A stretch of DNA of 64,000 nt. It comes from Edaphochlamys debaryana. Lineage: Eukaryota > Chlorophyta > Chlorophyceae > Chlamydomonadales. Positions 8,797-23,805 of this stretch are shown one piece after another. The notes beneath the pieces were generated by a model, which did no database searches, was not told the DNA's origin, and saw nothing but the letters and a program-made list of their open reading frames with translations. Location: assembly GCA_016858145.1 (NCBI GenBank), contig JAEHOE010000141.1:62001-126000 (forward strand), read 5' to 3'. The position numbers and the translations under genes are program-made. Within the stretch, counting starts at the first letter, position 1; every line of letters starts with the position of its first letter.

Positions 8797-9841
8797 ATGT
8801 GTATCCGGCGGGTGCCCGGAGTTGAAGAGGGCGCTGTACACCCGTCGCCCACTCCCGTTCGCCGTACGTGTGACAAGTGTGACCCGTCTGACGGGTGGCG
8901 TGCTCCACAAAGCACGCCGGCCGCTCTCCGCCCCTGCGCGTCGACGAGTAGACGGGTCGGACTTGGCAACATCCCGCAAGACAGCTGAGCCAAAAGCTTT
9001 GAGCACGCAAAATGCAGTTCATTCCGTTTGGGTCCCTGCTGGCCACCGACTACGCTCACCGTATCCTCATTGAGCGACCCTTTGGCTCCAATCACAAGCG
9101 CTGGGCGGGCTCCGCGGTGGCTAGTCGCTGCCTTGCGCGCGCGGCTGCCCGCTGCATGTTGGTGGGTGCATCGTGAGCGCGAACCTCACGGCTCTCGCTC
9201 TGCTGGACCTTCCTGGTGTCAGGCAAGTGGGTATGAGCTACAAGCATTACAAAACACCGGCCGTGGGGCACTAAGGCTCATGTCGGCGGGTGCCTATGGC
9301 CCTGCGCCGCATGCTGACAGCCATGTTCGGCCCACGACTTGTCCGCTACCAACAACCCCCCTTGCAGCCGAATTGCGAGCAATTGAGACCTTAGGTATCC
9401 ATCAGCAATCCCCCCCACTTTCCCCCGCGATCCGCAAGCATCTGCACCGTATCCATCACCCACCAACATGCTTCCCACCTGCCAATTTGTCAGTTTCGCA
9501 TGACTTGCAGCGCGGCTAGTGCGATAACTCCGACCACTTGCAGTACGCCCTTCGTAAGCGTACATATATCTCCTCGCAACGCCCGCACCAAACCCCGAGT
9601 AAGGGTACAGCAGGGCTTGTGCCGCACCACCTCCCGCCCCCCCCCCCCCTTGTGCCCCCGTTGCTGCCAGCCCATGCCCCTTCCCCAGGCTTGCAAGTGC
9701 CCTGCAGCCCCACGGGACGCATCAGCGATACGCATCCTCGGGGTAGTTCCCGTCCGCCGCGAGGATGGCGGGGAGGGTGGTGGCAAAGAGCCGCTTGACG
9801 GTCGCCATGCCTCACTCGGGGGTCAGAGCAGTGTCCCTGAA
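8797..9841. repeat. Copy 1 of a ~1.1-kb tandem duplication (left part, split by the retrotransposon)
   Basis: The segment starting ATGTGTATCCGGCGGG is nearly identical to 22665-23716. Differences are mainly small indels, for example in a C run (about 9642-9651 versus 23510-23524). The copy is cut by the LINE after the target-site duplication and resumes at 22515-22603. It includes a plus-strand frame starting ATG at 9011 (MQFIPFGSLLATDY..., 54 codons) present in both copies; the protein is unrecognised. Confidence 0.9.
9830..9841. repeat. Target-site duplication, left copy (AGTGTCCCTGAA)
   Basis: The 12 bases AGTGTCCCTGAA match 22503-22514 exactly. The empty site in repeat copy 2 (23705-23716, continuing GATCTCCC) contains the string once. 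Confidence 0.93.
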
Positions 9842-9943
9842 ATAGAAATAGAAATATCTAACGCCGGGTTACCCCTGGCGTGGGTTAAGGAGGGCGGGTT
9901 GGTCAGACCCGCCACCATGGGGGTGCCTCCGCACCCTTTGTGC

Positions 9944-10190
9944 TCATCCTGGCCGGAGGGTCCTGTAGGTTTTCACGATGCTCTTGAGGCGGCTCACCGC
10001 GTGCCGGTGCAGGCTGTGGCAGCAGGCTTTTGCCTCGGTGGCCGTGACGCCCAGTGTCTTAAGCAGGGGGTTGAGGGTGAGGGGCACAGTGCCGGTGTGC
10101 CCTAGTGTGACGATGGTCTGTCGGGAGTAGTGGACGGTCCAGCCGTCGCTCCGCAGCAGCTCGGCGAGGTGCGCGTGTTGTGAAGCAGAT
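9944..10190 (-). CDS. C-terminal tail of the LINE polyprotein (frame 0 resumed)
   Basis: This frame is the same one used by the 3779-codon ORF, after an excursion into +1 for RNase H. It reads AHLAELLRSDGWTVHYSRQT, then a segment ending in KSIVKTYRTLRPG with the stop at 9944-9946. A Trp/His-containing segment followed by a helical LGVTATEAKACCHSLHRHAV stretch is usual for the extreme C terminus of algal LINEs after the zinc finger, in my reading. The switch from the RNase H frame must fall between about 10230 and 10180. The start given is approximate because no ATG is needed here. Confidence 0.55.
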
Positions 10191-11136
10191 GTCCGATGGT
10201 CCCGCACCGCCGTTCGCCGTTGGCGCTGTGGCAGTGGGGGCAGTTGCTGTCGGGGACGTGGCCGTAGCGTTTGGCTAGGGCGGGGCAGTACATGGTGCCG
10301 TACCTCGCGCCCAGTACTGCGCTTAGGGTCCAGGGGTCGCCGTGCGGTTTCGCGCAGGTCAGGTTGCTGGAGGTCGGGCAGAGGTCGGGGGTGGCCTGTC
10401 GCCAGAGTTCGCTGAACACGCCTTCGTTGGTGTAGCCCGCATGGGCGCTGGGTGGTATCGCCTGGGTGAGTGCCCTTCCCATGTCGCTGACATAACGGAG
10501 CCCGGGGTGGGTCAGCCACCACAGGCGGGAGAAGGGGTTTGGGTCGGCGTGCTCAATCACGTCGCAGCCCTCATGGTCGGCTGCAGCCTCCTCGGCTCCC
10601 TTGTCTGCTTGTTCGTTTCCATACAGTCCAGTATGCGACACCACCTTCACTAGGCGCACGGGCACGTTTTGCGAGGCGAGTTCCTCTAGCGCATCGACGA
10701 TAGCGAACAGTAGCGCTCGTGCCTTTGACAGGCGCAGCTTACGAGGCTCCTTGATTGCGCATAGGATGAGGTCCAGCGAGGCTTGCGAGTCGCTGGCGAT
10801 GGTCAGCTCGTCACAGTCGCGGCCGAGCTCGACTAGCCCTGCTCGTATTCCAGAGAGCTCAGCGCGCGTGATTGTGTCGGTGCCACCTTCTTCGGAGCCG
10901 TTGGGGTCGATGAGGAGCACGCGGCCGATGGACCAGGCACATGCGCCTGTGCGGGTGCGTTCTCGGCCGTTCACCTCCACGGAGCTTTTGCTGCCGTCAG
11001 TCCATACAATGGTGTTGGGGTTGAATCGTAGCGGGAGGCGTGCCGGGAACGTGTCCGCGGCCCAGCCGCTGGGCAGGGGGCCAACTACGGTCGCGGGCGG
11101 GTCGGGCGGTGGTTGGGCCCGGAGGCTACGTGCCCT
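10102..11136 (-). CDS. LINE RNase H domain plus zinc-finger-like motif (+1 frame)
   Basis: The frame is open from 11136 (after a TGA at 11137-11139) to a stop at 10102-10104. It reads a Pro-rich linker, then VWTDGSKSS (first catalytic Asp, codon 10996-10998), TITRAELSGI (Glu), IASDSQASL (Asp) and HTGLYGNEQADKGAEEAA (last Asp), the full D-E-D-D set of an RNase HI fold. After it come CPHCHSANGER and GTIGHLLHN, a C2H2-like finger as in many LINE C termini. It would remove the RNA strand after reverse transcription. It overlaps the end of the large ORF by about 11 bases in a different frame. There is no sensible ATG before the first catalytic Asp (the first one, at 10980, lies after it), so translation should come from the large ORF or the frame is artificially shifted. 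Confidence 0.8.
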   Translation of the reverse strand, partial: RARSLRAQPPPDPPATVVGPLPSGWAADTFPARLPLRFNPNTIVWTDGSKSSVEVNGRERTRTGACAWSIGRVLLIDPNGSEEGGTDTITRAELSGIRAGLVELGRDCDELTIASDSQASLDLILCAIKEPRKLRLSKARALLFAIVDALEELASQNVPVRLVKVVSHTGLYGNEQADKGAEEAAADHEGCDVIEHADPNPFSRLWWLTHPGLRYVSDMGRALTQAIPPSAHAGYTNEGVFSELWRQATPDLCPTSSNLTCAKPHGDPWTLSAVLGARYGTMYCPALAKRYGHVPDSNCPHCHSANGERRCGTIGHLLHNTRTSPSCCGATAGPSTTPDRPSSH

Positions 11137-14100
11137 TCAGCGCGCCTCGTGGGGCACAAGCCGGGGCGCGGCTGGTGTCACCGGTCGTTCGTGGGCGGGC
11201 ACGAGCCTGGGCGGGGCAAGCTTCGTGGCACCTCTGTTTAGGCTCAGTCCTGAGGGTCGCCCAGCGGCTTGAACCTTCACCTGCGCCGCTCCCGTTCAGG
11301 GCGGCTATACCGTCATCATTGGCAACGAGCACCAGGCGCATGCCGTGCCGGGGGCCGGGGCGGTTTTCAGGTAGTCCAATCCCGGTGGTGAGGGGGCAGA
11401 TGCTGTCTGGCAGCCGGGCGAGGGAGTGCACGTGGCGGTGGTTGAGGAGGCGGGTATAGGGGGCGGTGTTGCTCCAGGGGAGCACCAGCAGGCTGACGGT
11501 GGGGGCGCCGGAGCCGTTGCTGACTTCCGTGCTGGCCGCTGCCCACTGCAGGGCCTTCAACCCCGAGGCGGGGTCGTGCGGTGGGTGGGCCATGGACAGG
11601 CCCGCCATGAGGGTGGAGTAGGCCTCGCCAGCGGCTCCAAACAGGCGGTCTTCTTCGCGGGCGCTGCAGTAGGTGGTGGTGAACCTGGCGCAGGTGAGCG
11701 GGGAGGCAAAGCGTTCCACCACGGGTCCGGCCAGCGGGACGGAGGCGAGGGCGCGCAGAAGCAGGAGCCGGGTCCAGGGGCAGAGGCAGTCTTGTCCTCG
11801 CGGGGCCGTCTTTGCTCGTTTGCCGCCGGGGACCTCGCCCCAGTAGTACGACAGTAGGCGAGCGACGTATTCGGCGAACACGTGGGGCGGGGGGCACATA
11901 TTCGGGTCGCTCTGTGTGGCCTGGTGGCGCTGGTGGAGGACCCACAGGCGGCTGACGGGCAGTTGGCCCAACAGGGTTCCGTTGGGGGAGTAGACAAAGG
12001 CGGGGTCCGGGTCCGTGGTGTCGGCCTGGGAGCGGCGGCGGCCGGCCTGAATGGTGTAGCGCCCGGGGGGGTGGATGTCCGCGTATGGGTTGCAGGGGGT
12101 GCGTTGGACAGTGGTGTTGGCCATGATGCGGCGTGTGCGTGCTGCGGGGTCCTCTGCCGGGCTCTCCCATCGTCCTTGCCTCTGCGCGTTAGTGAGGTTG
12201 GCGTCCGGGCGGGCCGTCGGGGCGGCTGCAGCGGGGCCTGGGCGCGGGGTTGCATTGTACTGTGCGAGTGCGGCAGTCCAGGAGTCGCAGTTTGTGAGGG
12301 CCTCCAGGGGCGCCCACATTGGTTTCCATGTGACGTATCGAAAGTTCTGGTCTATCCCCCTTCCGTACAGGGGTTTGCGGGCGGGCTCCGTGCCTCGGGG
12401 AGTGGGCCGCTGCGAGGCTTTGGCGACGGTCTCTGTCACCAAGCCCATCTCTTCGTAGCACTCCAGGGCACCGGTGGGTATGAGGGAGGGGCGCCAGCGC
12501 ACCAAGTACTGTATCTGCACCCTCTCTCTGGGGGTGGGGTTGTGGCCATCGGCTCGTAGCGCGGCTATTTGCTCTGCCGTCAGGCCGACGTAGGTGGGGC
12601 CGGCCAGGACAGATTCCACGTCGTCTAGTTCGTGGTACAGGTCATAGGTGATCTGTGTCGCTCCAACACTCCGGTTTTCCCCTTGCCCCGCTTTGACGGC
12701 CGCAGGTGAGGGCCACGGGATGGCGCATCGTAGGAGCTGCTCTCGGGCGACTTTCCAGCGCGGCCATCCTAGCTGGCCCCACTTCTTCGCCGCGTACTGG
12801 ACACGCTTTGGTGTGCTTTTTCGGGTGTCGGCGGTGAGGCGGGGGCTGGGGTGGGTGTGGGGCTCTGGGGGGCCGGGGGCGGGCGGGTCGTCAGGGGTTG
12901 CGCTGTTGTTGGGTACGAGTGCCCGCTGGCGGGTGAGGAGTGTGGCGGACAAGCCGCGCCGGGGTGGCGGCGCCTGCCGCGCGGGGGGACGGCGGTCTGT
13001 TGTGGGGTTGAAGGGCCCTTGCCATGCTTGTCCTTTCGCCACCCGTAGGGCCCCAAGGTTGGGGACACTCTGGTTGCAGTCGGTCATTAGGCTTTCGAAC
13101 GCACGCCGGGGGCACAGGCCGCCTTCACCACCAGGGGCGCCGTCGGGATCCGTGAAGCCGGCTCCGTGCGCTTGCGCTCCTACGGTGAGCACTCCGCGGG
13201 GCGCGGTGTCAATGACTATAGCGTGCGCCCGCTTGCGCTTCGGGGGGTTGCTCCCACCGGGGGTCGTGCGTTTCTCTGGGCGCGGTTGGGGGGCAGCGGG
13301 GACGTGCTGGTTACGGGCCGCACGTGTAGCGTTGCGCCGAGGCGGCGGCTCGGCAGGGGCGGGGTCCTGGGGGGCCTGGGCTGCGGCCTCAGGCGCCTCC
13401 GCGGGCTCTTGTTCGTCTGACTCGTTCCCGCCCACTTCTGCGCCCTCCGCAGCTGCAGGCGGGGCCTCGTCGTTGCGGTTGGTGGCGTTGGCGTCTGGCA
13501 TCCGCTGTTGGGCCCTGAGGAACTTGTCCAAGGTGGGTTGGGTGAGGCCCGTCGGGCGGGCGGAGGGGTCACGGAAGCCCGCAAAGCAGGGTGCGTCAGG
13601 GAGCTGGCGGTGGTCAGCTGGGAGGGGCTGGGTCGTGTAGCAGTCTGTGGGGTCGAGGTTGTGCGGTGCGGGCGTGCAGGCGCGGCTGAGGGCCAGGCTT
13701 AGGCGGTTGAGGGCGACCAGGTGTTGGGGTCTCACCCGGGCGCTGTTGTTCCGGGCAAGGGTGCGGAGCTCCGTGGTAGAGATAATGTGGCGCTTTGTGC
13801 GCTTGTCGAGTAGGTCGTAAGGGCTGAGGCCGAGCTCCATGAGTGGCGTCAGGTCTAGGTGGGCCAGGCAGGGGGCCTGGCTTTGTCGGGCCGCGGCTAG
13901 GGCGGCGCCGACTAGGGGGTCGGTAGGGGCGGCGAAGGTTGCGCCCTGGTCCGTGAGGTGCAAGCCGTTGGCTTCGGCGTTCTGTAGCATGCGTAGGGTG
14001 CAGTAGTAGCTGGCTTGTTTGGCGCGTCCCTGGACTGACGTCTTGCCCCACCTCGCGGATTGCAGGCAGAGCATCGCTGCCGAGACAACGCCGAGCCGGC

Positions 14101-17100
14101 CCTCATCGTTCAGTGACGTAACAAGGGCTTTGGCGGCAGTCTCTGCGTACTGGACACGGAGGCTTTGGATACCGGCGCCGTACTCGGTGGGTGGGAGCAG
14201 GAGGGCTCGGGTAGGGAAGCCGCGTGGGAGGTTTAGAGCCCGCCGGGCGGCTTGTGCAATCTTGGCGTCCAGGGCGGCAATATCGCTGGGGCCGTACGGC
14301 ATGACGGGGAAGCCGTATTTGATGACGGCTTTCACGCACTGCTGCAGGAGGCGAATCTTCTGTGGCGCGGATGCCAGGGAGCCATTGACGCAGTCAATCT
14401 TTTCCACGACCTTGCGTGTGATGGCGGCGATGTGGGCGCCCCAGTGCAGGGTGAGCGTGAGCTGGACCCCTAGGTACTTGTATGGCACGGTCGGGGCTTG
14501 GTAGGGGAGCGATGTGCCATTGATTTTGATCTGCCCCTCAAGGGCCGGTCTGAGTGTGCGGGGGCAGCAGGGCCCGTTCAGCCCGCGGTCGCTCCAGGCC
14601 TGTCGGTGGAGGATGCCGCTCACGGCGCACTTGCTGTGGTTGACCGCAAGGCCGGCCCAGTTTGAGTATTCTTCAACCTTCTGCGCTTGTACCTTCAGGT
14701 CGGCCACCGAGTTGGTGAGGACGGCAAGGTCGTCCGCGTATGCTGCAGAGCTGCAGTGCCATTGCTGGTTGTCCTGTGCGGTGAGGCAGCCGTACCGGTA
14801 GCCCCGGCCACCCACGTGGAGCCAGCGGATCAGCGGCTCTGCAAAGACCAGGAAGAGGACGGGGGACAGGGTGTCGCCCTGGATCGTGCCTCGCTCGACG
14901 GGGATGGGTGCTGTGCACCCGTGCTCGGTGTGGACCTGTGTCCGGGCCTGGCTGTACAGGTCCTGTACGACATCAATTAGATCGGCGGGGAGGCCCAGGT
15001 CCCACATGATCTGTAGGAGCTTGTCGTGGTTTACTGTGTTGAAGGCGGCGCTGAAGTCTAGGTACATGACGTACAGGTCTTGCCGCGTCAACCCTGCATC
15101 TTCGATGGCGTGGACGACATTGAGCAGTTGACGGGTCGTGTTCTTATAGGCCTGAAACCCCTCTTGGGTGTCGCTGATCAGCTGCATCCAATCCTGTACG
15201 GTACCGATGCTGACGGTGATTAGGCTGGTGTATAGTTTGTAGCAGGTGTTGGCGAGGGCGATAGGGCGTTTGTTTTTGAGCAGGGTGGGGTCCCCGTCTT
15301 TGGGGAGGAGCACCGTGGTGGAGACGGTCCACGTGGCGGGGGTGGTGGCCCGCACGTAGATAACGGTCATGAAGTGGTGCAGGACCTCTTTTAGGTCGGG
15401 TGGCAGGCAGCGCAGGAGTTCGTTGGGCAGTCCGTCGGGGCCGGGCGCTTTGTTCTTTGCAAGGTGCCCTATGCAGCGCTCGTAGTTCGCGGGGTCGGCT
15501 ATTGCTGAGAGCAGGCTGTGGGCCGTGGGGTCGATGGTACGGTGCAGAGTGAATGGGTCGGGCGCGCCTGGGGCCTCAAATGGGTAGTGGCGTGGGGCTT
15601 CCTCGGGGCGGAAGCGCCCTGTCCGGTTGCCCGCGGACAGTTTACGGTAGTAGGCATGGACAGTGTCCAGGATGGACGAGGGCGTGGTCTGCATCTGTCC
15701 TTGGCAGTCTTGTACGGCGGGCAGCCCCCGTTCCAGCTCTTGGGTGGTGAAGATCTTCTTGTGGGCCTGGCGCGGCCGGGTGGCGAGTTCCTTTTGCAAT
15801 TGCTCTCGGGCCCTGCGCTGTCTTTGAGATGAGCCTTGTTTGGCCAGGGCCTTCAGTTGGAGGCCGGTCTGGCGGACCTGTTCTCTGAGCGCCGTTACGT
15901 GGGCAGGGGCGGGGCCTGGCCGTCGTGGGCCCAGGCCGCATTGTTCCATGGCCGCTGTCAGGTCGGACTTTTGGGATGCGTGGGTCTGGTTCAGTTTTTC
16001 ATACTCCCTGCTGACGGATCGTCGCATCCACCATCGCCGGTCGGCAGGCTTCTTTGTGCATTCGTCGTATAGGGTGTCGTAGCATGCGTTGAGGGTGTGG
16101 TTGATGGCGTTGGCGGCCTCGTCGATGCTAACCCCGGCCACCGTTGGGTTGGCGCGGAGCCGTTGGATCAGGCCAGTGGCGTCGGTGCTTTGGGTGGTCA
16201 CGAAGGTGTTGAGTTCTGCACGTACGGCCCCCATGGCTTGTGCCAGGCTTTCGCAGAGAGAGGCCATGGCCTCGGGCCATTGGCTGGCCATCATTCGGGC
16301 TTGTGCGGCGTCGAGTGCGGTCTGAGACACGGGGAGGCTTACGTTTTGCCACGAGCGGGCGTCGCGGGCTTGGGGAGGCGCCGGCGTAGCGGGCGGGTCC
16401 CACAGACGGATGGCCGTGGTCGCCAGGGAGAGCAGGATGGCGCGGTGGTCGCAGCTCCCGCCGGCCGCCATTACGGACTCAAGGGCGCGCGGGGGATGGT
16501 TGCTGCCCCCCGCGTTTGGCCCAACGGCCTTGCGCAGGGCAGGGGAGAGCAAGATGTCGTCAATTCGGCTGTAGTGCGTGCCTTCTCCGTGTTGGGTTTG
16601 CATGAACGTCCATGCGCGGGGTGCGTTGGGGCTGGTGTGGAGTGCTGCGAAGCGGCTCTTCTTGAGGAAGGCCTGGTGTGAGCGGTCAGCCGTGTCGCAT
16701 GCTCCTGTCGTGCGGTCGTGGGCGCTAGCCACAGCGTTGAAGTCTCCGCCCGCCGCGAGGTGGGCGCCTTGCGCTGCTGCTGTCCGGTGCGCGGTTTGCA
16801 GGTATTCGTATACGGCCAGGCGGAGGGCCGAGTTTTCGGGTATGTATACGCCGACTATGTGAAGGGGCGTGCTGCCCGGTGTCCGTATGATCACATGCGA
16901 AACGTATCCGGCGAGATGGGCGGGGGTGTTGATTTGTCGGGTGCAGCCGGCTTGGCAGTAGCGGCCGGCGATTGCGATGGCCACGCCGGCGTGGGGCCGG
17001 GTGTTGCTGCGGGTGGCTGGGGCTGATGAGCAGAAGAGCCGGTAGCCGCGTTCTTCAGACGCGAGTCGTGTCCGGATCCAGGTGGTGCGTTTTCCGGTCT

Positions 17101-20100
17101 TTGTCTCAGTGAGAATTACGGCGTCCGCCGCCCAGGCACGCATGTTGCAGATTACCGAGTCGGCATTGGCCCAGAGGCCGCGGACATTGTGGGTGGCAAT
17201 GCGGAGGGTGGGGCAGGAGTTTTCCCGTTCACTGTCGGGGGAATTGGCGGGGCAGGAGGGGGCGGAGGGGTCCGCTTGGGGCGCGCCTGCCCCGTTTGTG
17301 TTGGGGGCAGAGGCAGTGCGTGCCCATAGTTTGTCAAGGGTTCGCTGTTTTTTGGCAGGCTGGCGAGGGGGTGGGGGGGGTGTTTGGCGGGCGGGGTTGG
17401 CGGGGGGGTCCGTTGGGTTGGTGGGCGGCAACGCGTTGTCAGGGAGCCAGTACTCGTTCCCGTCTCTCTGCCGCACCCATTTGCCGCGGGCGGCGGAGTC
17501 TGGGGCGGGGGTCGCGTTGTGCGCGTCGTTGCTATTCGGTGGTCTGGGGTGGCCGCTTCCGTGGGGGTTTTGGGTTTTCTGGCGTTTCAAGTGGGGCTGA
17601 GCGCCGGAAGCGGGCCCGGGGGCACGGGCAGGGGGTGCTGGGGGCCGGGGGGGGGATGGGGGGCGGGGCGGGGGGCCGCCGGGGGGAGGGGGTGGCGGGC
17701 CAGCGGGTGGCGGGAGCGTCAGTGGCGCCGTGCCGTCTGCCCGGGTGGGGTTTGCGGTTTTACGGCGTTTACTTCGAGGGTGGGCGGTGGGTGCGGGCCC
17801 GGGGGCGGGGGGTGCTGAGGGACCGCGGGTGGGCGTTGGGCGGGGTGGCGGGCCCCTGGGGGTTGGGGCTGTCAGCAGGTCAGCGGTTGTCTGTCGTTTC
17901 GGTTGGGGTTGGGCAGGGTCGGGCCCGGCGGTGAGGGCTGGGGGTGCTGGTGATCCACGTGGGGGTGGGGGCGAGTGAGCGGGGGGCTGTGGGTGGCTGG
18001 GTGCCCAGGGGCTGGGGATGCGTGCCAGGGGGCCGAGCGCCCATTGCCTAACACTTGCTGTCATGTTTGTTAGGTGCTCCTTGAAGATGGAGGAGGGGAT
18101 GCGGAGTTGGCCTTCGATGGCCGCCCAGTCGCTGTCGGTCATCGGGCGTGGGGCATGGTTGCGTGAGTCGCTGTGGTACCATGTGCCATTCACCCAACGC
18201 ACCGCGTAGGTATGGTCAACGCCGTGGACGGTGAAGCCGCCGGGCCCTCTGGGGTCGTACTGCAGGCCGTCAAGCCTGTTGAGAATGGATGTTCGGGTGG
18301 AGCCTCGCTGTGCGGTGAGGTTAATTTTGCGGGAGACGCTGCGCCAGGTTTGGGAGGTTTCGTTGTGAGCTAGGTAGTGATTGAGGAATTCGGTGGTCAT
18401 GCCTTCGCTTGGGTTGAATGATTGCGCCCACAGGCACCGCGCGTCCCCGGTGAGGGTGTCGAGCCCTGCTTGGTGGTAGGCAAGGAGGTGTGCGTGATCA
18501 ATTGCTGCGCAGCCGTGTAGGTTGTTCCAGGCGTGGACCTCGCAGAGGGCGCCTTGTTGGCATTCGTGGTAGAGCGAGGCGCTGGTGCTGTCGGGGGCCA
18601 CGTAGCAGGCGCTGTCGGAGTAGGTGTGGGTGTTCAATGGCGGCCGGCCACGGCTCCCAGGCGGGGGGGTGGCAGGTGTCACGTTTGTGCCAGGCATCCC
18701 ACGCAGCTGCAGCGGGGGGGCCGGGGTGACATGAGGGGTGCTGGGGACCAGCAGGTTGATTGCCAGGCAGAGGACGCCTAGTGTGTTAACGGTCGGGTGC
18801 CAGGGGGGAGTCTGTGGCGTGGGTGCTATAGCCCAGGGTGTGGTGGTGGGCATGGTGTAGCCGTGTGCGTGCCACGCCTGGTATGTCCAATCCGCGCACG
18901 GCGGGGGCGTTGCTTGGGGGGCGGGGGCGCAGAGGGTGGAGGTGATGAGGGCTATGAGCGCAAGGGCGCCCGCGTGGTGTGCGAGCGTGCGGGCGAGTGG
19001 TGTTGCGGCGGGGGCGCAGCTGGCCAGGAGCTGCGTGCCTAGGAGGGTTGCGGCGATGAGGCCTGTGGTGAGGGCGATGGTGGCGGTGGTGTACAGGATG
19101 GCCGCCCAAGCAAGTGGCTGCGAGCATGTCGCGTAGACGAGGGGCAGGGCAGATGCTCCAGTGAGGCACAGGGTGCATGCCAGCCGAACGGGCGTGTCTG
19201 GTGAGTGTGGCCGCCGTAGCGGGTTGTGGGTGCTGACCCAGGTGTGTAGGAGGTGGTTGACGGCTGCGACTGCCGGCAGGGCGCATGTGGCCCAGACGCA
19301 CCCTGCGGTGGCGTAGGTTACTAATGCGGGGGCGAGTTTGAGCGCTGTCCATAGTGCAGCGAGGGCAATCGCTAGGGCGCAGGCGGCGAGGGTGAGGGCG
19401 ATTGCGAGGGACAGGGCGGCCGTGGCCAGGAGCAGGGTTGTGGCGTGTGCAGCTGTGTTGTAACAGATCAGGCATACGACGGTGGCGAGGAGGCCCCAGA
19501 CAGCCTGAAGACGACTAGTATAGGTGGCGGTGCGCGCGCAGAGGCCGAGGGCCCGGGCTAGCGGGGTGGGCAGCACTCGCAAGAGGGGACTGTCGTGCAG
19601 GGCGCGGCTGATGTCCAGCAGGACCATCAGGGTCAAAGGGAGTGTCGCGGCTAAACAGGCGGTGCCGAGGCTGATGCGTTCAGTCCAGTCAACCTGGCAT
19701 GCGGCAAGGAGTTGTAGGTCCCTAACGAGCAGCGCAGTGGGGTTGGGGGCTGGGGGCAGCCGCCAGGCCCATGTGCTGCGGGGTGCAACGGGGTGGTCAG
19801 GGTCTCGACATGGGCTGAGTGGGGTCAAGCGGGCGGAGTGCGGTAGGGGCAGGCTGTAGTCCAGGCGCGTCCCCATGGGGGTGCGGTTTAGCCCGCTCGG
19901 GGCCGCACGGGCGAGCCCAGTGGTAGCGTTGCAGCCAGTCGTTACATTGGTTACGCTTAGCCCATGCTTGTGGGCAGCAGTACGGTAGGGCACGCGGCAG
20001 CCGTCCGTCTCATCAGGCCAGCGCCCGTGGGCAACGGACATCCGTGCCCCAGGGTCAGACACACCCGATTTGGGAAGCCAGAAATCATCACCCGCTCGCG

Positions 20101-22465
20101 GTGCGGCGCAACCATCCGTCTCATCAGGCCAGCGCTCGTGGGCAACAGGCATACACGCCCCAGGGGCGAACACACGCACTTTAGGAGGCCCAGGCTCGTC
20201 ACTCATCCGAGGCGCGTCGCATCCCTCCATCTCAGGCCAACGTCCGAGGGCACCAGGCACCCAAGTCCCAGAGGCAAGCATTCGCAGTTTAAAGGTCCAG
20301 GACTCATCACACACCCGTAGCGCATCCCACCCACTTGACGCAAGCCAGCGCCCACGGGCAGCAGGCACCCACGTCCCGCAAGCAGGCGTACGCAGGTTAC
20401 GAAACCAGGACTCATCGTCCATCCAGGGCGCGATGCACCCCCCCGTCTCAAGCCAGCGCCCGTGGGCGACAGGCATCCATGTCCCAAAGGCAGGCACACG
20501 CAGTTCGACAGACCAGAACTCATCACACACCCGTGGCGCGTCGCATCCACTTATCGCGAGCCAGGGCCCGCGGGCATCAGGCGCCCACGCCCCGCAAGCA
20601 GGCGTACACAAGTTACGAAACCAGGACTCATCACCCATCCAAGGCGCGTCGCATCCCTCCGTCTCAAGCCAGCGTCCCTGAGCAACAGTCGCCCATGCCC
20701 CGGGGTCGGGCCCATGCAGGTCGATGGGACAAAGCGCAATGTAGTGCGATGGCGTATGACGCGCGGGCACTACGGACCAGCGCCCGTGCGCAGCAGACAC
20801 CCGTATTCCAAAGACAAGCGCACACAATATTGTAGGGCAGGGCAGGCCGCCCTCCCGAGTCACACCGCTGGCTGCAATTCCGCACCAACGACCTAGGGTG
20901 GCCGGCTCCAATTCTCCAGGAGCTGGCGCCCTCGAGGCGTGGGTCACGTGTGCAACGGGCACACAGTGCCAAGCGCCGGGGGCTACAAGGCGCGGCGCCG
21001 TAGCCGGCGCAGACGGCGTGTTGGGTGGCGTGGGGCTGGCGAACTGGGCGAGCTTGAGGTTGTCGGTCCTGGTGCTGGCAGTCACCTTGCAGTGGCCGGC
21101 CCCGGGGGGGAGCAGGCTCTTCACCTTTTCCACGGTGGCCTCCGCAGAGATGAGGGCCTTGACTGCGGGCGGGCGGGCCGTGCGGGGGGAGGTGAGTTGG
21201 GGCAGGGGCCAGAGGGGTGCGGGGTGCGGGGCGAGCGGGGGCGCGAGGTTGGGAGGGGGCGCCGAGTGCGAGACTCGGCTGTCGCAGGCTGCAAGCAAGA
21301 CTGTAGGATGGAAGCGCTCACCCTCGTGGTCGGCCTGTGCCTGGGCGGCGGCCGACCATTCTTGCCGCGCCACCGAGCTGGCGCCTGCGTTCTTCTGGCG
21401 CTCCTTCGCGTTGTCCGCCGTGGATAGGCCCGAGAGCGTAACGTGCACGCAACCCAGCGAGCCCAGGCATCCGTTGACCGCGGGCAGGCCGTAGCCCGCG
21501 CTCAGGAAGATAATTTCTGGCATATCGGGCATCTCGCGGTCCAGGGCCTGAGCGACTATGGGCTGCAGGTGGAGGTGCTGCTGCACGGCCTCCTCATCCA
21601 TGTTGAGAGCCTGGCTCGCGGTGAAGGCGAGACGGGCCGCCGGGAGATCGGCGACGCCGAAGGAGAGCATGTGGCAGCCAGGGGCACCGGCATAGTGCTC
21701 GATAGGTGTGTTTGCGGTGAGTTTGTGAAGCTCAATACTGCCGTTTGGTACGCCATTGCGAGTGCGGGCCCCCACGGCCGCGATGGCTGGGTAGGAGCGA
21801 CTCTGCATGTCAGCTGACTGGGGGCAAGCGCAGCAGTAGTGGGGCTGTGGCAGGAGGCGGTCGCTTAAGGTATAAGTGGAGAGTGTGTCGCCGGCATCGG
21901 GGTCAAATCGGAGGTGCGCAAGGCCGTACTCCAGCGCTCCGCCCGGGGCGCCCAGGGTGTGGTGGTTGTGGATTTGACTGCCGTGTGTGGCAGGGGAGCT
22001 TGCGGTGGGGGGTGCGGCAGGGCCGGGGGCGTGTGCGGGGGATGTGCACAGGCAGGATACGGCCTGGGCCGCGTGAGCCTGTGGGCTGGTTGTAACGAGC
22101 TGTAGGAGGAAAGCAACAAGCAGGGCGGGGACGAGAGACGGGGTAGGAGAGCGGGCCCATGTTTGGCGCTGTAGCCTCTCGCGCAACGGATCCGCCGCGG
22201 TCTTTTGCAGGCTCGAGAATGGCAGCGTGTGCTTGCGTTGCGGAGGCACCCTATCGCCTTCCAGCGCAGCCTTTGCCGGCAGCCGCGTTTCCCGCGATGG
22301 GCGCGTGCTCCGGTCCCGGCCCGCTTTCCGGCTAAGGGGCTGATCCCTGTAGGTGCCAGGCAGGTGCTCCACGGCGGCTGTGCTCAGTGGGGCGCCGCGC
22401 CAGCCCTCCTTGGTCGCCATGCTGCTAAGTCTCGTTGCCGCGACGGGGTTGTTGGTACTAGGCAT
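11126..22465 (-). CDS. Giant LINE polyprotein: Josephin-like protease, APE endonuclease, RT, chromo-like and PCIF1-like domains
   Basis: A single frame of 3779 codons. Visible order: hydrophobic segment about 110-126; eight Trp-rich 36-residue repeats about 555-816; about eight predicted membrane helices 928-1241; Josephin-like protease about 1285-1460 (Q1303, C1308, H1418, D1433); Pro-rich linker with basic motifs and QRTLDKLW near 1707; APE endonuclease about 1751-2016 (THNVRG, LTETK, GGDFN with D1908, SRIDD, CDHR); RT about 2330-2620 (NKAPGPDGLP, LDFSAAFNTVNH, GTIQGDTLSPVLF, YADD at 2576-2579) plus thumb; QPTLDKFL near 2976; acidic/basic linker with PPKRKR; chromo-like about 3280-3400 (YLVRW...WAPLEALTNC); PCIF1-like about 3580-3720. 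Endonuclease and RT would nick DNA and prime cDNA at the target. The start follows an in-frame TGA. Ubiquitin, chromatin and methyltransferase roles are inferred from fold resemblance only. Confidence 0.9.
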   Translation of the reverse strand: MPSTNNPVAATRLSSMATKEGWRGAPLSTAAVEHLPGTYRDQPLSRKAGRDRSTRPSRETRLPAKAALEGDRVPPQRKHTLPFSSLQKTAADPLRERLQRQTWARSPTPSLVPALLVAFLLQLVTTSPQAHAAQAVSCLCTSPAHAPGPAAPPTASSPATHGSQIHNHHTLGAPGGALEYGLAHLRFDPDAGDTLSTYTLSDRLLPQPHYCCACPQSADMQSRSYPAIAAVGARTRNGVPNGSIELHKLTANTPIEHYAGAPGCHMLSFGVADLPAARLAFTASQALNMDEEAVQQHLHLQPIVAQALDREMPDMPEIIFLSAGYGLPAVNGCLGSLGCVHVTLSGLSTADNAKERQKNAGASSVARQEWSAAAQAQADHEGERFHPTVLLAACDSRVSHSAPPPNLAPPLAPHPAPLWPLPQLTSPRTARPPAVKALISAEATVEKVKSLLPPGAGHCKVTASTRTDNLKLAQFASPTPPNTPSAPATAPRLVAPGAWHCVPVAHVTHASRAPAPGELEPATLGRWCGIAASGVTREGGLPCPTILCALVFGIRVSAAHGRWSVVPARHTPSHYIALCPIDLHGPDPGAWATVAQGRWLETEGCDAPWMGDESWFRNLCTPACGAWAPDARGPWLAISGCDAPRVCDEFWSVELRVPAFGTWMPVAHGRWLETGGCIAPWMDDESWFRNLRTPACGTWVPAARGRWLASSGWDALRVCDESWTFKLRMLASGTWVPGALGRWPEMEGCDAPRMSDEPGPPKVRVFAPGACMPVAHERWPDETDGCAAPRAGDDFWLPKSGVSDPGARMSVAHGRWPDETDGCRVPYRTAAHKHGLSVTNVTTGCNATTGLARAAPSGLNRTPMGTRLDYSLPLPHSARLTPLSPCRDPDHPVAPRSTWAWRLPPAPNPTALLVRDLQLLAACQVDWTERISLGTACLAATLPLTLMVLLDISRALHDSPLLRVLPTPLARALGLCARTATYTSRLQAVWGLLATVVCLICYNTAAHATTLLLATAALSLAIALTLAACALAIALAALWTALKLAPALVTYATAGCVWATCALPAVAAVNHLLHTWVSTHNPLRRPHSPDTPVRLACTLCLTGASALPLVYATCSQPLAWAAILYTTATIALTTGLIAATLLGTQLLASCAPAATPLARTLAHHAGALALIALITSTLCAPAPQATPPPCADWTYQAWHAHGYTMPTTTPWAIAPTPQTPPWHPTVNTLGVLCLAINLLVPSTPHVTPAPPLQLRGMPGTNVTPATPPPGSRGRPPLNTHTYSDSACYVAPDSTSASLYHECQQGALCEVHAWNNLHGCAAIDHAHLLAYHQAGLDTLTGDARCLWAQSFNPSEGMTTEFLNHYLAHNETSQTWRSVSRKINLTAQRGSTRTSILNRLDGLQYDPRGPGGFTVHGVDHTYAVRWVNGTWYHSDSRNHAPRPMTDSDWAAIEGQLRIPSSIFKEHLTNMTASVRQWALGPLARIPSPWAPSHPQPPAHSPPPPRGSPAPPALTAGPDPAQPQPKRQTTADLLTAPTPRGPPPRPTPTRGPSAPPAPGPAPTAHPRSKRRKTANPTRADGTAPLTLPPPAGPPPPPPGGPPPRPPSPPRPPAPPARAPGPASGAQPHLKRQKTQNPHGSGHPRPPNSNDAHNATPAPDSAARGKWVRQRDGNEYWLPDNALPPTNPTDPPANPARQTPPPPPRQPAKKQRTLDKLWARTASAPNTNGAGAPQADPSAPSCPANSPDSERENSCPTLRIATHNVRGLWANADSVICNMRAWAADAVILTETKTGKRTTWIRTRLASEERGYRLFCSSAPATRSNTRPHAGVAIAIAGRYCQAGCTRQINTPAHLAGYVSHVIIRTPGSTPLHIVGVYIPENSALRLAVYEYLQTAHRTAAAQGAHLAAGGDFNAVASAHDRTTGACDTADRSHQAFLKKSRFAALHTSPNAPRAWTFMQTQHGEGTHYSRIDDILLSPALRKAVGPNAGGSNHPPRALESVMAAGGSCDHRAILLSLATTAIRLWDPPATPAPPQARDARSWQNVSLPVSQTALDAAQARMMASQWPEAMASLCESLAQAMGAVRAELNTFVTTQSTDATGLIQRLRANPTVAGVSIDEAANAINHTLNACYDTLYDECTKKPADRRWWMRRSVSREYEKLNQTHASQKSDLTAAMEQCGLGPRRPGPAPAHVTALREQVRQTGLQLKALAKQGSSQRQRRAREQLQKELATRPRQAHKKIFTTQELERGLPAVQDCQGQMQTTPSSILDTVHAYYRKLSAGNRTGRFRPEEAPRHYPFEAPGAPDPFTLHRTIDPTAHSLLSAIADPANYERCIGHLAKNKAPGPDGLPNELLRCLPPDLKEVLHHFMTVIYVRATTPATWTVSTTVLLPKDGDPTLLKNKRPIALANTCYKLYTSLITVSIGTVQDWMQLISDTQEGFQAYKNTTRQLLNVVHAIEDAGLTRQDLYVMYLDFSAAFNTVNHDKLLQIMWDLGLPADLIDVVQDLYSQARTQVHTEHGCTAPIPVERGTIQGDTLSPVLFLVFAEPLIRWLHVGGRGYRYGCLTAQDNQQWHCSSAAYADDLAVLTNSVADLKVQAQKVEEYSNWAGLAVNHSKCAVSGILHRQAWSDRGLNGPCCPRTLRPALEGQIKINGTSLPYQAPTVPYKYLGVQLTLTLHWGAHIAAITRKVVEKIDCVNGSLASAPQKIRLLQQCVKAVIKYGFPVMPYGPSDIAALDAKIAQAARRALNLPRGFPTRALLLPPTEYGAGIQSLRVQYAETAAKALVTSLNDEGRLGVVSAAMLCLQSARWGKTSVQGRAKQASYYCTLRMLQNAEANGLHLTDQGATFAAPTDPLVGAALAAARQSQAPCLAHLDLTPLMELGLSPYDLLDKRTKRHIISTTELRTLARNNSARVRPQHLVALNRLSLALSRACTPAPHNLDPTDCYTTQPLPADHRQLPDAPCFAGFRDPSARPTGLTQPTLDKFLRAQQRMPDANATNRNDEAPPAAAEGAEVGGNESDEQEPAEAPEAAAQAPQDPAPAEPPPRRNATRAARNQHVPAAPQPRPEKRTTPGGSNPPKRKRAHAIVIDTAPRGVLTVGAQAHGAGFTDPDGAPGGEGGLCPRRAFESLMTDCNQSVPNLGALRVAKGQAWQGPFNPTTDRRPPARQAPPPRRGLSATLLTRQRALVPNNSATPDDPPAPGPPEPHTHPSPRLTADTRKSTPKRVQYAAKKWGQLGWPRWKVAREQLLRCAIPWPSPAAVKAGQGENRSVGATQITYDLYHELDDVESVLAGPTYVGLTAEQIAALRADGHNPTPRERVQIQYLVRWRPSLIPTGALECYEEMGLVTETVAKASQRPTPRGTEPARKPLYGRGIDQNFRYVTWKPMWAPLEALTNCDSWTAALAQYNATPRPGPAAAAPTARPDANLTNAQRQGRWESPAEDPAARTRRIMANTTVQRTPCNPYADIHPPGRYTIQAGRRRSQADTTDPDPAFVYSPNGTLLGQLPVSRLWVLHQRHQATQSDPNMCPPPHVFAEYVARLLSYYWGEVPGGKRAKTAPRGQDCLCPWTRLLLLRALASVPLAGPVVERFASPLTCARFTTTYCSAREEDRLFGAAGEAYSTLMAGLSMAHPPHDPASGLKALQWAAASTEVSNGSGAPTVSLLVLPWSNTAPYTRLLNHRHVHSLARLPDSICPLTTGIGLPENRPGPRHGMRLVLVANDDGIAALNGSGAGEGSSRWATLRTEPKQRCHEACPAQARARPRTTGDTSRAPACAPRGALKGT
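20010..20800 (-). repeat. Eight 108-bp coding repeats (36-residue Trp-rich unit)
   Basis: On the plus strand, strings like CCAGCGCCCGTGGGC recur at 20018, 20129, 20237, 20345, 20453, 20561, 20669 and 20777: spacing 108 bp, once 111. The period is a multiple of three and stays in frame in the large ORF. The encoded unit has the pattern GTW-x-P-VAHGRW-x5-GCDAPR-x2-DE-x-W. Divergence between units indicates age, while the exact phase indicates selection for protein. Confidence 0.92.
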
Positions 22466-22502
22466 TCATCTAGCTATTGTGCATAGCCCTTGCTCCTCTT
22501 TT

Positions 22503-22514
22503 AGTGTCCCTGAA
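22503..22514. repeat. Target-site duplication, right copy (AGTGTCCCTGAA)
   Basis: Exact 12-base match to 9830-9841. It is followed by GATCTCCCAGG as in the empty site at 23717. Confidence 0.93.
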
Positions 22515-22603
22515 GATCTCCCAGGACAGCTTGAATCCAGCGCCGGGCTTGTAAAGCAGCGGATCTAGATCCCCTGAATGGTGGGCGGGCATGATCCTGC
22601 AAG
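22515..22603. repeat. Copy 1 of the ~1.1-kb duplication (right part)
   Basis: Identical in order to 23717-23805, ending in CCTGCAAG, after which copy 1 runs into G homopolymers. Confidence 0.88.
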
Positions 22604-22664
22604 GGGGGGGGGGGGGGGGGGGGGGGAGACCGGGGGGGGGGGGGGGGGAGTCAGGGCGTGTGCC
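22604..22664. other. G homopolymer junction between the duplicated units
   Basis: Two G runs of roughly 20 bases each (about 22603-22626 and 22632-22648) separated by AGACC, then a short unique piece. This may be a real low-complexity junction or a poorly resolved assembly join. Confidence 0.8.
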
Positions 22665-23805
22665 ATGTGTATCCGGCGGGTGCCCGGAGTTGAAGAGGGC
22701 GCTGTACACCCGTCGCCCGCTCCCGTTCGCCGTACGTGTGACAAGTGTGACCCGTCTGACGGGTGGCGTGCTCCACAAAGCACGCCGGCCGCTCTCCGCC
22801 CCTGCTGCGCGTCGACGAGTAGACGGGTCGGACTTGGCAACATCCCGCAAGACAGCTGAGCCAAAAGCTTTGAGCACGCAAAATGCAGTTCATTCCGTTT
22901 GGGTCCCTGCTGGCCACCGACTACGCTCACCGTATCCTCATTGAGCGACCCTTTGGCTCCAATCACAAGCGCTGGGCGGGCTCCGCGGTGGCTAGTCGCT
23001 GCCTTGCGCGCGCGGCTGCCCGCTGCATGTTGGTGGGTGCATCGTGAGCGCGAACCTCACGGCTCTCGCTCTGCTGGACCTTCCTGGTGTCAGGCAAGTG
23101 GGTATGAGCTACAAGCATTACAAAACACCGGCCGTGGGGCACTAAGGCTCATGTCGGCGGGTGCCTATGGCCCTGCGCCGCATGCTGACAGCCATGTTCG
23201 GCCCACGACTTGTCCGCTACCAACAACCCCCCTTGCAGCCGAATTGCGAGCAATTGAGACCTTAGGTATCCATCAGCAATCCCCCCCACTTTCCCCCGCG
23301 ATCCGCAAGCATCTGCACCGTATCCATCACCCACCAACATGCTTCCCACCTGCCAATTTGTCAGTTTCGCATGACTTGCAGCGCGGCTAGTGCGATAACT
23401 CCGACCACTTGCAGTATGCCCTTCGTAAGCGTACATATATCTCCTCGCAACGCCCGCACCAAACCCCGAGTAAGGGTACAGCAGGGCTTGTGCCGCACCA
23501 CCTCCCGCCCCCCCCCCCCCCCCCTTGTGCCCCCGTTGCTGCCAGCCCATGCCCCTTCCCCAGGCTTGCAAGTGCCCTGCAGCCCCACGGGACGCATCAG
23601 CGATACGCATCCTCGGGGTAGTTCCCGTCCGCCGCAAGGATGGCGGGGAGGGTGGTGGCAAAGAGCCGCTTGACGGTCGCCATGCCTCACTCGGGGGTCA
23701 GAGCAGTGTCCCTGAAGATCTCCCAGGACAGCTTGAATCCAGCGCCGGGCTTGTAAAGCAGCGGATCTAGATCCCCTGAATGGTGGGCGGGCATGATCCT
23801 GCAAG
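22665..23805. repeat. Copy 2 of the ~1.1-kb tandem duplication (intact, carries the empty insertion site)
   Basis: Matches 8797-9841 followed by 22515-22603. Because it lacks the LINE it acts as an internal pre-insertion reference: 23701-23724 reads through the target without interruption. Confidence 0.92.
23691..23798 (-). CDS. Candidate 36-codon exon inside the duplicated unit
   Basis: On the minus strand, an acceptor (CTTGCAG before 23798) and a donor (GA then GTGAGG, exon end 23691) enclose 108 bases with 35 complete codons: IMPAHHSGDLDPLLYKPGAG, then FKLSWEIFRDTALTP. The exon has one leading and two trailing bases, so it keeps phase. The rest of the gene was not assembled from the neighbouring sequence and the protein is unrecognised. 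In copy 1 the LINE interrupts this same exon within the codons for FRDT, so copy 1 would be inactive. Confidence 0.4.

Follow-up and report, generated by a model that had tools for sequence, protein, structure and literature searches.

The 64,000 nucleotides of Edaphochlamys debaryana DNA analysed here (contig JAEHOE010000141.1, positions 62,001 to 126,000; the window, below, is this whole stretch) contain a long interspersed nuclear element (LINE) whose polyprotein carries a domain of the Josephin family, well known from the deubiquitinase ataxin-3. A Josephin-like domain within a LINE polyprotein was what the original prediction had claimed, and it is borne out by profile comparisons, by related copies and by the predicted fold. 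We propose, with a probability of roughly 0.55, that this domain was captured and has been kept by a LINE lineage as a slow ubiquitin isopeptidase that acts in cis on the element's own polyprotein. The frame and the domain, with its candidate active site residues, are as follows.

11126 to 22465, minus strand: open frame P0001, 3,779 amino acids (open reading frame list and translation)
18071 to 18595, minus strand: Josephin domain, approximately residues 1291-1465 (Pfam, PDB profile search, structure comparison)
18557 to 18559, minus strand: Q1303, oxyanion-hole glutamine (alignment)
18542 to 18544, minus strand: C1308, catalytic cysteine (alignment)
18212 to 18214, minus strand: H1418, catalytic histidine, followed by the non-aromatic T1419 (alignment)
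18167 to 18169, minus strand: D1433, third catalytic residue, an aspartate also in Josephin-2 (alignment)

The sequence strings quoted in the original prediction are present in the 3,779-residue frame, and the suggested comparison with the Pfam Josephin profile (PF02099) was favourable. The match in the whole window protein has an E value of 0.0095; when cut out, the domain matches with an E value of 2.6e-5 and 24.5 bits, slightly below the cut-off of 26, which related copies exceed. Among five other copies in one Pfam scan, four are above the cut-off (L021, 31.5 bits; L022, 31.4; L026, 26.8; L016, 26.6) and L019 is slightly below it (25.4), and the database proteins P0003, P0004 and P0002 reach 40.9, 27.4 and 26.7 bits, respectively. 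Nine of the 10 members of a family alignment (A5) match Pfam Josephin at an E value of 0.1 or less, the tenth presumably being C63b, which gave no Pfam match; a 10-row family profile finds Josephin-2 (E value 3.2e-13) and ataxin-3 (8.4e-9) in the PDB. The predicted model of the domain has a papain-like fold, as had been anticipated, and its nearest solved structures are Josephins, which occupy all of the first 19 PDB rows returned by Foldseek. Judged by sequence profiles and a predicted model, residues 1291-1465, approximately, form a real Josephin-family cysteine-protease domain.

Alignment places the four proposed catalytic residues exactly where they had been predicted, matching the active site of ataxin-3, in which we take the counterparts to be Q9, C14, H119 and N134. 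All four are identical in 14 of 14 LINE rows, some of which are near-copies and two of which come from outside this genome, and the spacing of the glutamine is variable in two groups of LINE Josephins. This 14-row count omits the near-copies C51, C2, C116, C104, C106 and C89m, which are instead rows of another Josephin alignment (A1), the fragments C220 (two) and C324, the locus C63:425093, copies C9 and C150 (internal stops) and P0002 (C-terminal part unalignable). In the helical part, a tryptophan is present in 13 of the 14 rows (the remaining row has a stop) and an asparagine in all 14, both being absent from ataxin-3.

The E. debaryana assembly (141.9 Mb, 502 contigs) contains 24 Josephin loci in four groups, with an RT (reverse transcriptase) 2.1-3.3 kb downstream at 20 of them. 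Searching with the window domain gave 21 rows, corresponding to 19 loci: a near group at 76-100% identity together with the C220 fragments (67-72%), a C94/C125 group (38-41%) and a C89-type group (29-36%). At 16 of these 19 loci an RT of the same clade lies on the same strand, 2.07-3.33 kb downstream. The fourth group (D), found upstream of the C63 RT, has four loci (C63, C105, C27 and C120), each with an RT 2.3-2.6 kb downstream, and a further Josephin fragment of 66 residues is at C324. The loci with no listed RT are C63:425093 and three fragments, two of them at C220 and one at C324. Conversely, 17 of 37 typed RT rows have a Josephin within 8 kb upstream, or 21 when the group-D loci are included (ten fragment rows at 36-96% identity and 80 rows at 23-29% were excluded from typing). 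When 6 kb upstream of four more loci of the RT clade was read, a Josephin was present in C63b and none was seen for C145, C221 and C96; the latter three may be 5'-truncated, so we make no claim for Josephin presence across the whole RT clade.

The same architecture occurs outside this genome. In the protein database, P0003 (from a JGI contig) and P0004 (PLESTB_001761100 of Pleodorina starrii) rank first as relatives of the endonuclease-RT part, and the domain order in both, from Josephin through endonuclease to RT, is that of the window LINE; the volvocacean alga P. starrii is the source of the nearest named protein relative. UniRef automatically names P0004 'ubiquitinyl hydrolase 1', and the domain had thus been machine-annotated previously. 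P0002 (277 residues, from a 1.2-kb ENA contig) comprises the first half of the Josephin, preceded by a stretch that it has in common with P0003. Among 120 of 170 relatives listed, a Josephin was found only in P0003 and P0004, using a profile that includes both and is hence circular for them, although Pfam agrees. Motif inspection of P0003-P0015 found an endonuclease start only in P0003, P0004 and P0011; in P0011, where the endonuclease is at residue 117, neither the profile nor Pfam found a Josephin, so the domain is not in all relatives. A long-protein search with the window Josephin region by itself gave no match, which we read as a limit of exact-word seeding, P0003 and P0004 having emerged once the endonuclease-RT part served as query; a scan with alignment A1 gave 68 pattern stretches in viral contigs (IMG/VR) and 51 in GTDB species genomes, none of them a relative. 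The domain had also been called unusual; this holds for the libraries searched, but not in the sense of a private trait, as the domain is common to several LINE families.

The ratio of nonsynonymous to synonymous substitution rates (dN/dS) in the Josephin domain is below 1 in all 17 chosen pairs (0.06-0.59), of which the near-copies have few changes and the deepest are near saturation. For the window and copy C44 it is 0.27 in frame, compared with 1.15 and 1.47 in the shifted frames and 1.07, 0.46 and 1.25 in the antisense frames; the two halves of the linker that follows the domain give 0.74 and 0.52, the highest values among the segments compared. In the C89p-C92 pair, unlike in window-C44, the linker is barely freer than the Josephin (0.36 versus 0.25). 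These substitution patterns indicate that the frame evolves under purifying selection. Two host genes, one ataxin-3-like and one JOSD-like, have their pieces in different frames, so that the host Josephins look intron-bearing. In a tree, ten LINE rows stand apart from these and human ataxin-3 with branch support of 100/99; the tree, whose branches are long and whose cellular rows number just three, weakly supports the view that the Josephin was captured by a chlamydomonadalean LINE lineage probably a single time. Synonymous divergence (dS) between the window and C44 is 0.59 in the Josephin (18071-18595) and 0.01-0.04 in the endonuclease and RT (14462-17197), and for C89p and C92 the endonuclease part gives 0.1, against 1.1 for the Josephin. 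Given this contrast, the 5' module appears to have been swapped between families, and the elements seem to have a mosaic history of such exchange.

The regions on either side of the Josephin bear on what it may do.

18611 to 19825, minus strand: membrane-like region (residues 881-1285); five hydrophobic 19-mers lie within residues 931-1183 (Kyte-Doolittle prediction)
17216 to 18070, minus strand: proline-rich basic linker, residues 1466-1750, with KRRK, KRQK and KKQR stretches (composition)

Counting 19-mers of mean hydropathy of at least 1.6 within 400 residues before the Josephin cysteine, we found five in the window protein, P0003 and C94, six in P0004 and one each in C89p and C63b; a membrane-like stretch is thus predicted before the Josephin in six of the seven proteins scanned, with no hydrophobic 19-mer before the cysteine in the fragment P0002. 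Shuffled controls average 0.1-1.25 hydrophobic segments over the whole protein length; no such segment occurs in either remaining sense frame of the window open frame, and the antisense frames have 6, 4 and 1. In composition-adjusted BLASTP of the pre-Josephin stretches, only C94-window (2.3e-4) and P0002-P0003 (4e-12) have E values below 0.01. On hydropathy, a predicted membrane region reads as adjoining the Josephin. In several families a PIP-box-like QxxL/IxxxF/W motif (QRTLDKLW in the window) was seen by eye before the endonuclease, at residues 1690-1730, approximately.

With a predicted membrane region on one side and, on the other, a basic linker leading to the endonuclease and RT, the Josephin would strip ubiquitin from the membrane-associated polyprotein and from proteins bound to it; the deubiquitinated polyprotein would escape destruction linked to the endoplasmic reticulum or the proteasome and could survive long enough for the next element copy. 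What weighs against this proposal is the residue after the catalytic histidine. Typical deubiquitinases have an aromatic gatekeeper there, the mutation of which costs USP activity, according to one study (PMC10643670). The position is tryptophan in ataxin-3 and both host Josephins, and phenylalanine in the bacterial PaJOS, but threonine, valine or alanine in 14 of 14 LINE rows, and the LINE enzymes may therefore be slow or prefer another substrate. The same study describes two Josephins of Simkania, SnJos1/2, that also lack the gatekeeper, yet cut ubiquitin chains slowly, and in which inserting a tryptophan lowered activity.

The absent gatekeeper is also compatible with the principal alternative, that the Josephin is a polyprotein protease whose cut in cis would separate the endonuclease-RT part from the membrane region and so free the former, with the linker, for nuclear import. 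Papain-like proteases adjoin membrane segments in some RNA-virus polyproteins, and the location of the Josephin after a membrane-like region would suit such a role, as would the basic linker that follows it in the window protein and the titles of two bacterial Josephin structures (PDB 9f5t and 9g7g), which call them clippases and suggest that the fold can cut another bond. However, we know of no Josephin that processes a polyprotein, and no conserved cleavage motif was found, albeit without a proper search, an inspection of GG pairs giving nothing usable. Self-cleavage, which like cis deubiquitination is suggested by position and family, is in our view unlikely. Rather less probable is that it acts in trans, where the element integrates, on ubiquitinated host proteins of chromatin, repair or silencing, a role that PMC2836005 proposes for OTU and Ulp1 domains in DNA transposons; the predicted membrane tether beside the domain favours local action. 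Loss of the gatekeeper might instead mark a catalytically dead domain whose role is to bind ubiquitin or other proteins, but mere binding would not need a glutamine, cysteine, histidine and aspartate that are invariant across the 14 LINE rows, including the two that come from outside the genome, and we regard this as quite improbable. Chance similarity, or a host gene fragment hit by a LINE insertion, could be entertained for the window copy by itself, which falls below the Pfam cut-off, but is contradicted by the 24 loci, which fall into four groups and of which 20 have an RT downstream, by the database relatives from two other sources, by the family profile match and by the distinct, apparently intron-bearing host Josephins, and can practically be discounted.

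A broader reading, which we advance tentatively and consider somewhat unlikely, would cover both cis activities: a green-algal LINE lineage would make a membrane-inserted polyprotein, in the order multi-pass region, Josephin, basic linker, endonuclease, RT, methyltransferase-like region and RNase H, whose gatekeeper-less Josephin cuts or deubiquitinates the element's own protein. If true, this would be a virus-like membrane-protease-replicase layout, which to our knowledge is known from no LINE, with a Josephin specificity unlike that of known deubiquitinases.

The LINE domain has its profile, fold and Q/C/H/(N or D) active site in common with the Josephin deubiquitinases ataxin-3 and Josephin-1/2, but lies inside a polyprotein and has no aromatic residue after the histidine. 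It has its fold in common with the bacterial SnJos1/2, PaJOS, BpJOS and PcJOS (two of them titled 'clippase'), which are not retrotransposon parts. The Dualen/RandI LINEs of Chlamydomonas are, like the window element, green-algal LINEs with an apurinic/apyrimidinic endonuclease (APE) and RT; reportedly (Kojima and Fujiwara, 2005) they are defined by a second, restriction-like endonuclease, which was not noticed downstream in the window-type LINE on inspection by eye only. Ulp1 is a clan CE protease. LINEs with an Ulp1-like protease, NeSL and Utopia-1_TSP (PMC4640811), likewise have a cellular protease for ubiquitin-like modifiers N-terminal to the RT, but are restriction-like-endonuclease-type elements of nematodes for which the accessible text describes no membrane region. 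The DNA transposons Ginger1, Mutator and Helitron have OTU or Ulp1 domains, and a Trichomonas transposase has peptidase C19 (PMC2836005); these too are mobile elements with ubiquitin or SUMO proteases, but of other families. The Ulp1 LINEs and these transposons are precedents in kind, to which the Josephin adds a further protease family, in a retrotransposon; among the open-access matches listed, judged by title and the start of the abstract, we found no Josephin inside a retrotransposon, the matches listed for Josephin together with retrotransposons apparently concerning the name Josephine or copies of the ataxin-3 gene. The roles of the Ulp1, OTU and C19 domains in mobile elements are, in these reports, proposals by their authors. 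A one-residue change (C1308A), near-identical copies and a transformable relative (Chlamydomonas) offer a clean comparison on whether LINEs must defeat ubiquitin, and the gatekeeper loss makes the LINE Josephin a natural test of what determines Josephin specificity.

The remaining features of the element are as follows.

9842 to 22664, minus strand: LINE element of roughly 12.8 kb; its low end is where the blastn match to other copies starts, and its high end is taken from the flanking direct repeat
8797-9841 and 22665-23716: direct repeat of 1.05 kb, 99% identical, flanking the LINE
19997-20702: tandem repeats of 108 bp that precede the coding part
16526 to 17197, minus strand: APE-type endonuclease (Exo_endo_phos; Pfam E value 4.1e-7)
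14462 to 15304, minus strand: RT (RVT_1; Pfam E value 4.5e-27)
11468 to 11719, minus strand: weak PCIF1-like region (PF12237), residues 3583-3666 (20.9 bits against a cut-off of 31.1; E value 2.9e-4 when this piece was scanned)
10105 to 11136, minus strand: RNase H, in a frame different from that of the long open frame (Pfam E value 8.3e-11)

With an APE endonuclease, a LINE RT, an RNase H and dispersed genomic copies, the element is an APE-type non-long-terminal-repeat retrotransposon. Matches to other copies begin at 9842 (C51) and 9839 (C2), and the length is about 12.8 kb provided that the flanking repeat, our sole marker for the high end, marks the 5' end. The inner edge of this repeat coincides within a few bases with the element's low end; the repeat would be a target-site duplication of remarkable length or a tandem repeat between whose units the LINE inserted. 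Differences between the window and C51 by codon position are 5, 3 and 5 for residues 560-880 and 2, 3 and 9 for residues 881-1285; those from C2 (1, 0 and 0; 2, 3 and 3) are too few to tell. As the repeats upstream of the membrane-like region have no coding signal against C51, translation probably starts near residue 880, and the first 880 or so residues of P0001 are probably read-through of 5' untranslated repeats. The 108-bp repeats resemble the 5'-untranslated promoter monomers of some LINEs.

The PCIF1-like match is also weak in L040, L044, L042, P0005 and P0009, is in the precomputed annotation of P0009 and P0012, and was not found at an E value of 0.1 in P0003, P0004 and P0011. PCIF1-type methyltransferases are expected to have an NPPF motif; in those inspected by eye, except P0012, the position is AHP-type, so that there is perhaps no working methyltransferase. 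The RNase H ends C-terminally in a zinc-knuckle-like stretch, and in copy C150 the RNase H and the PCIF1-like region share a frame.
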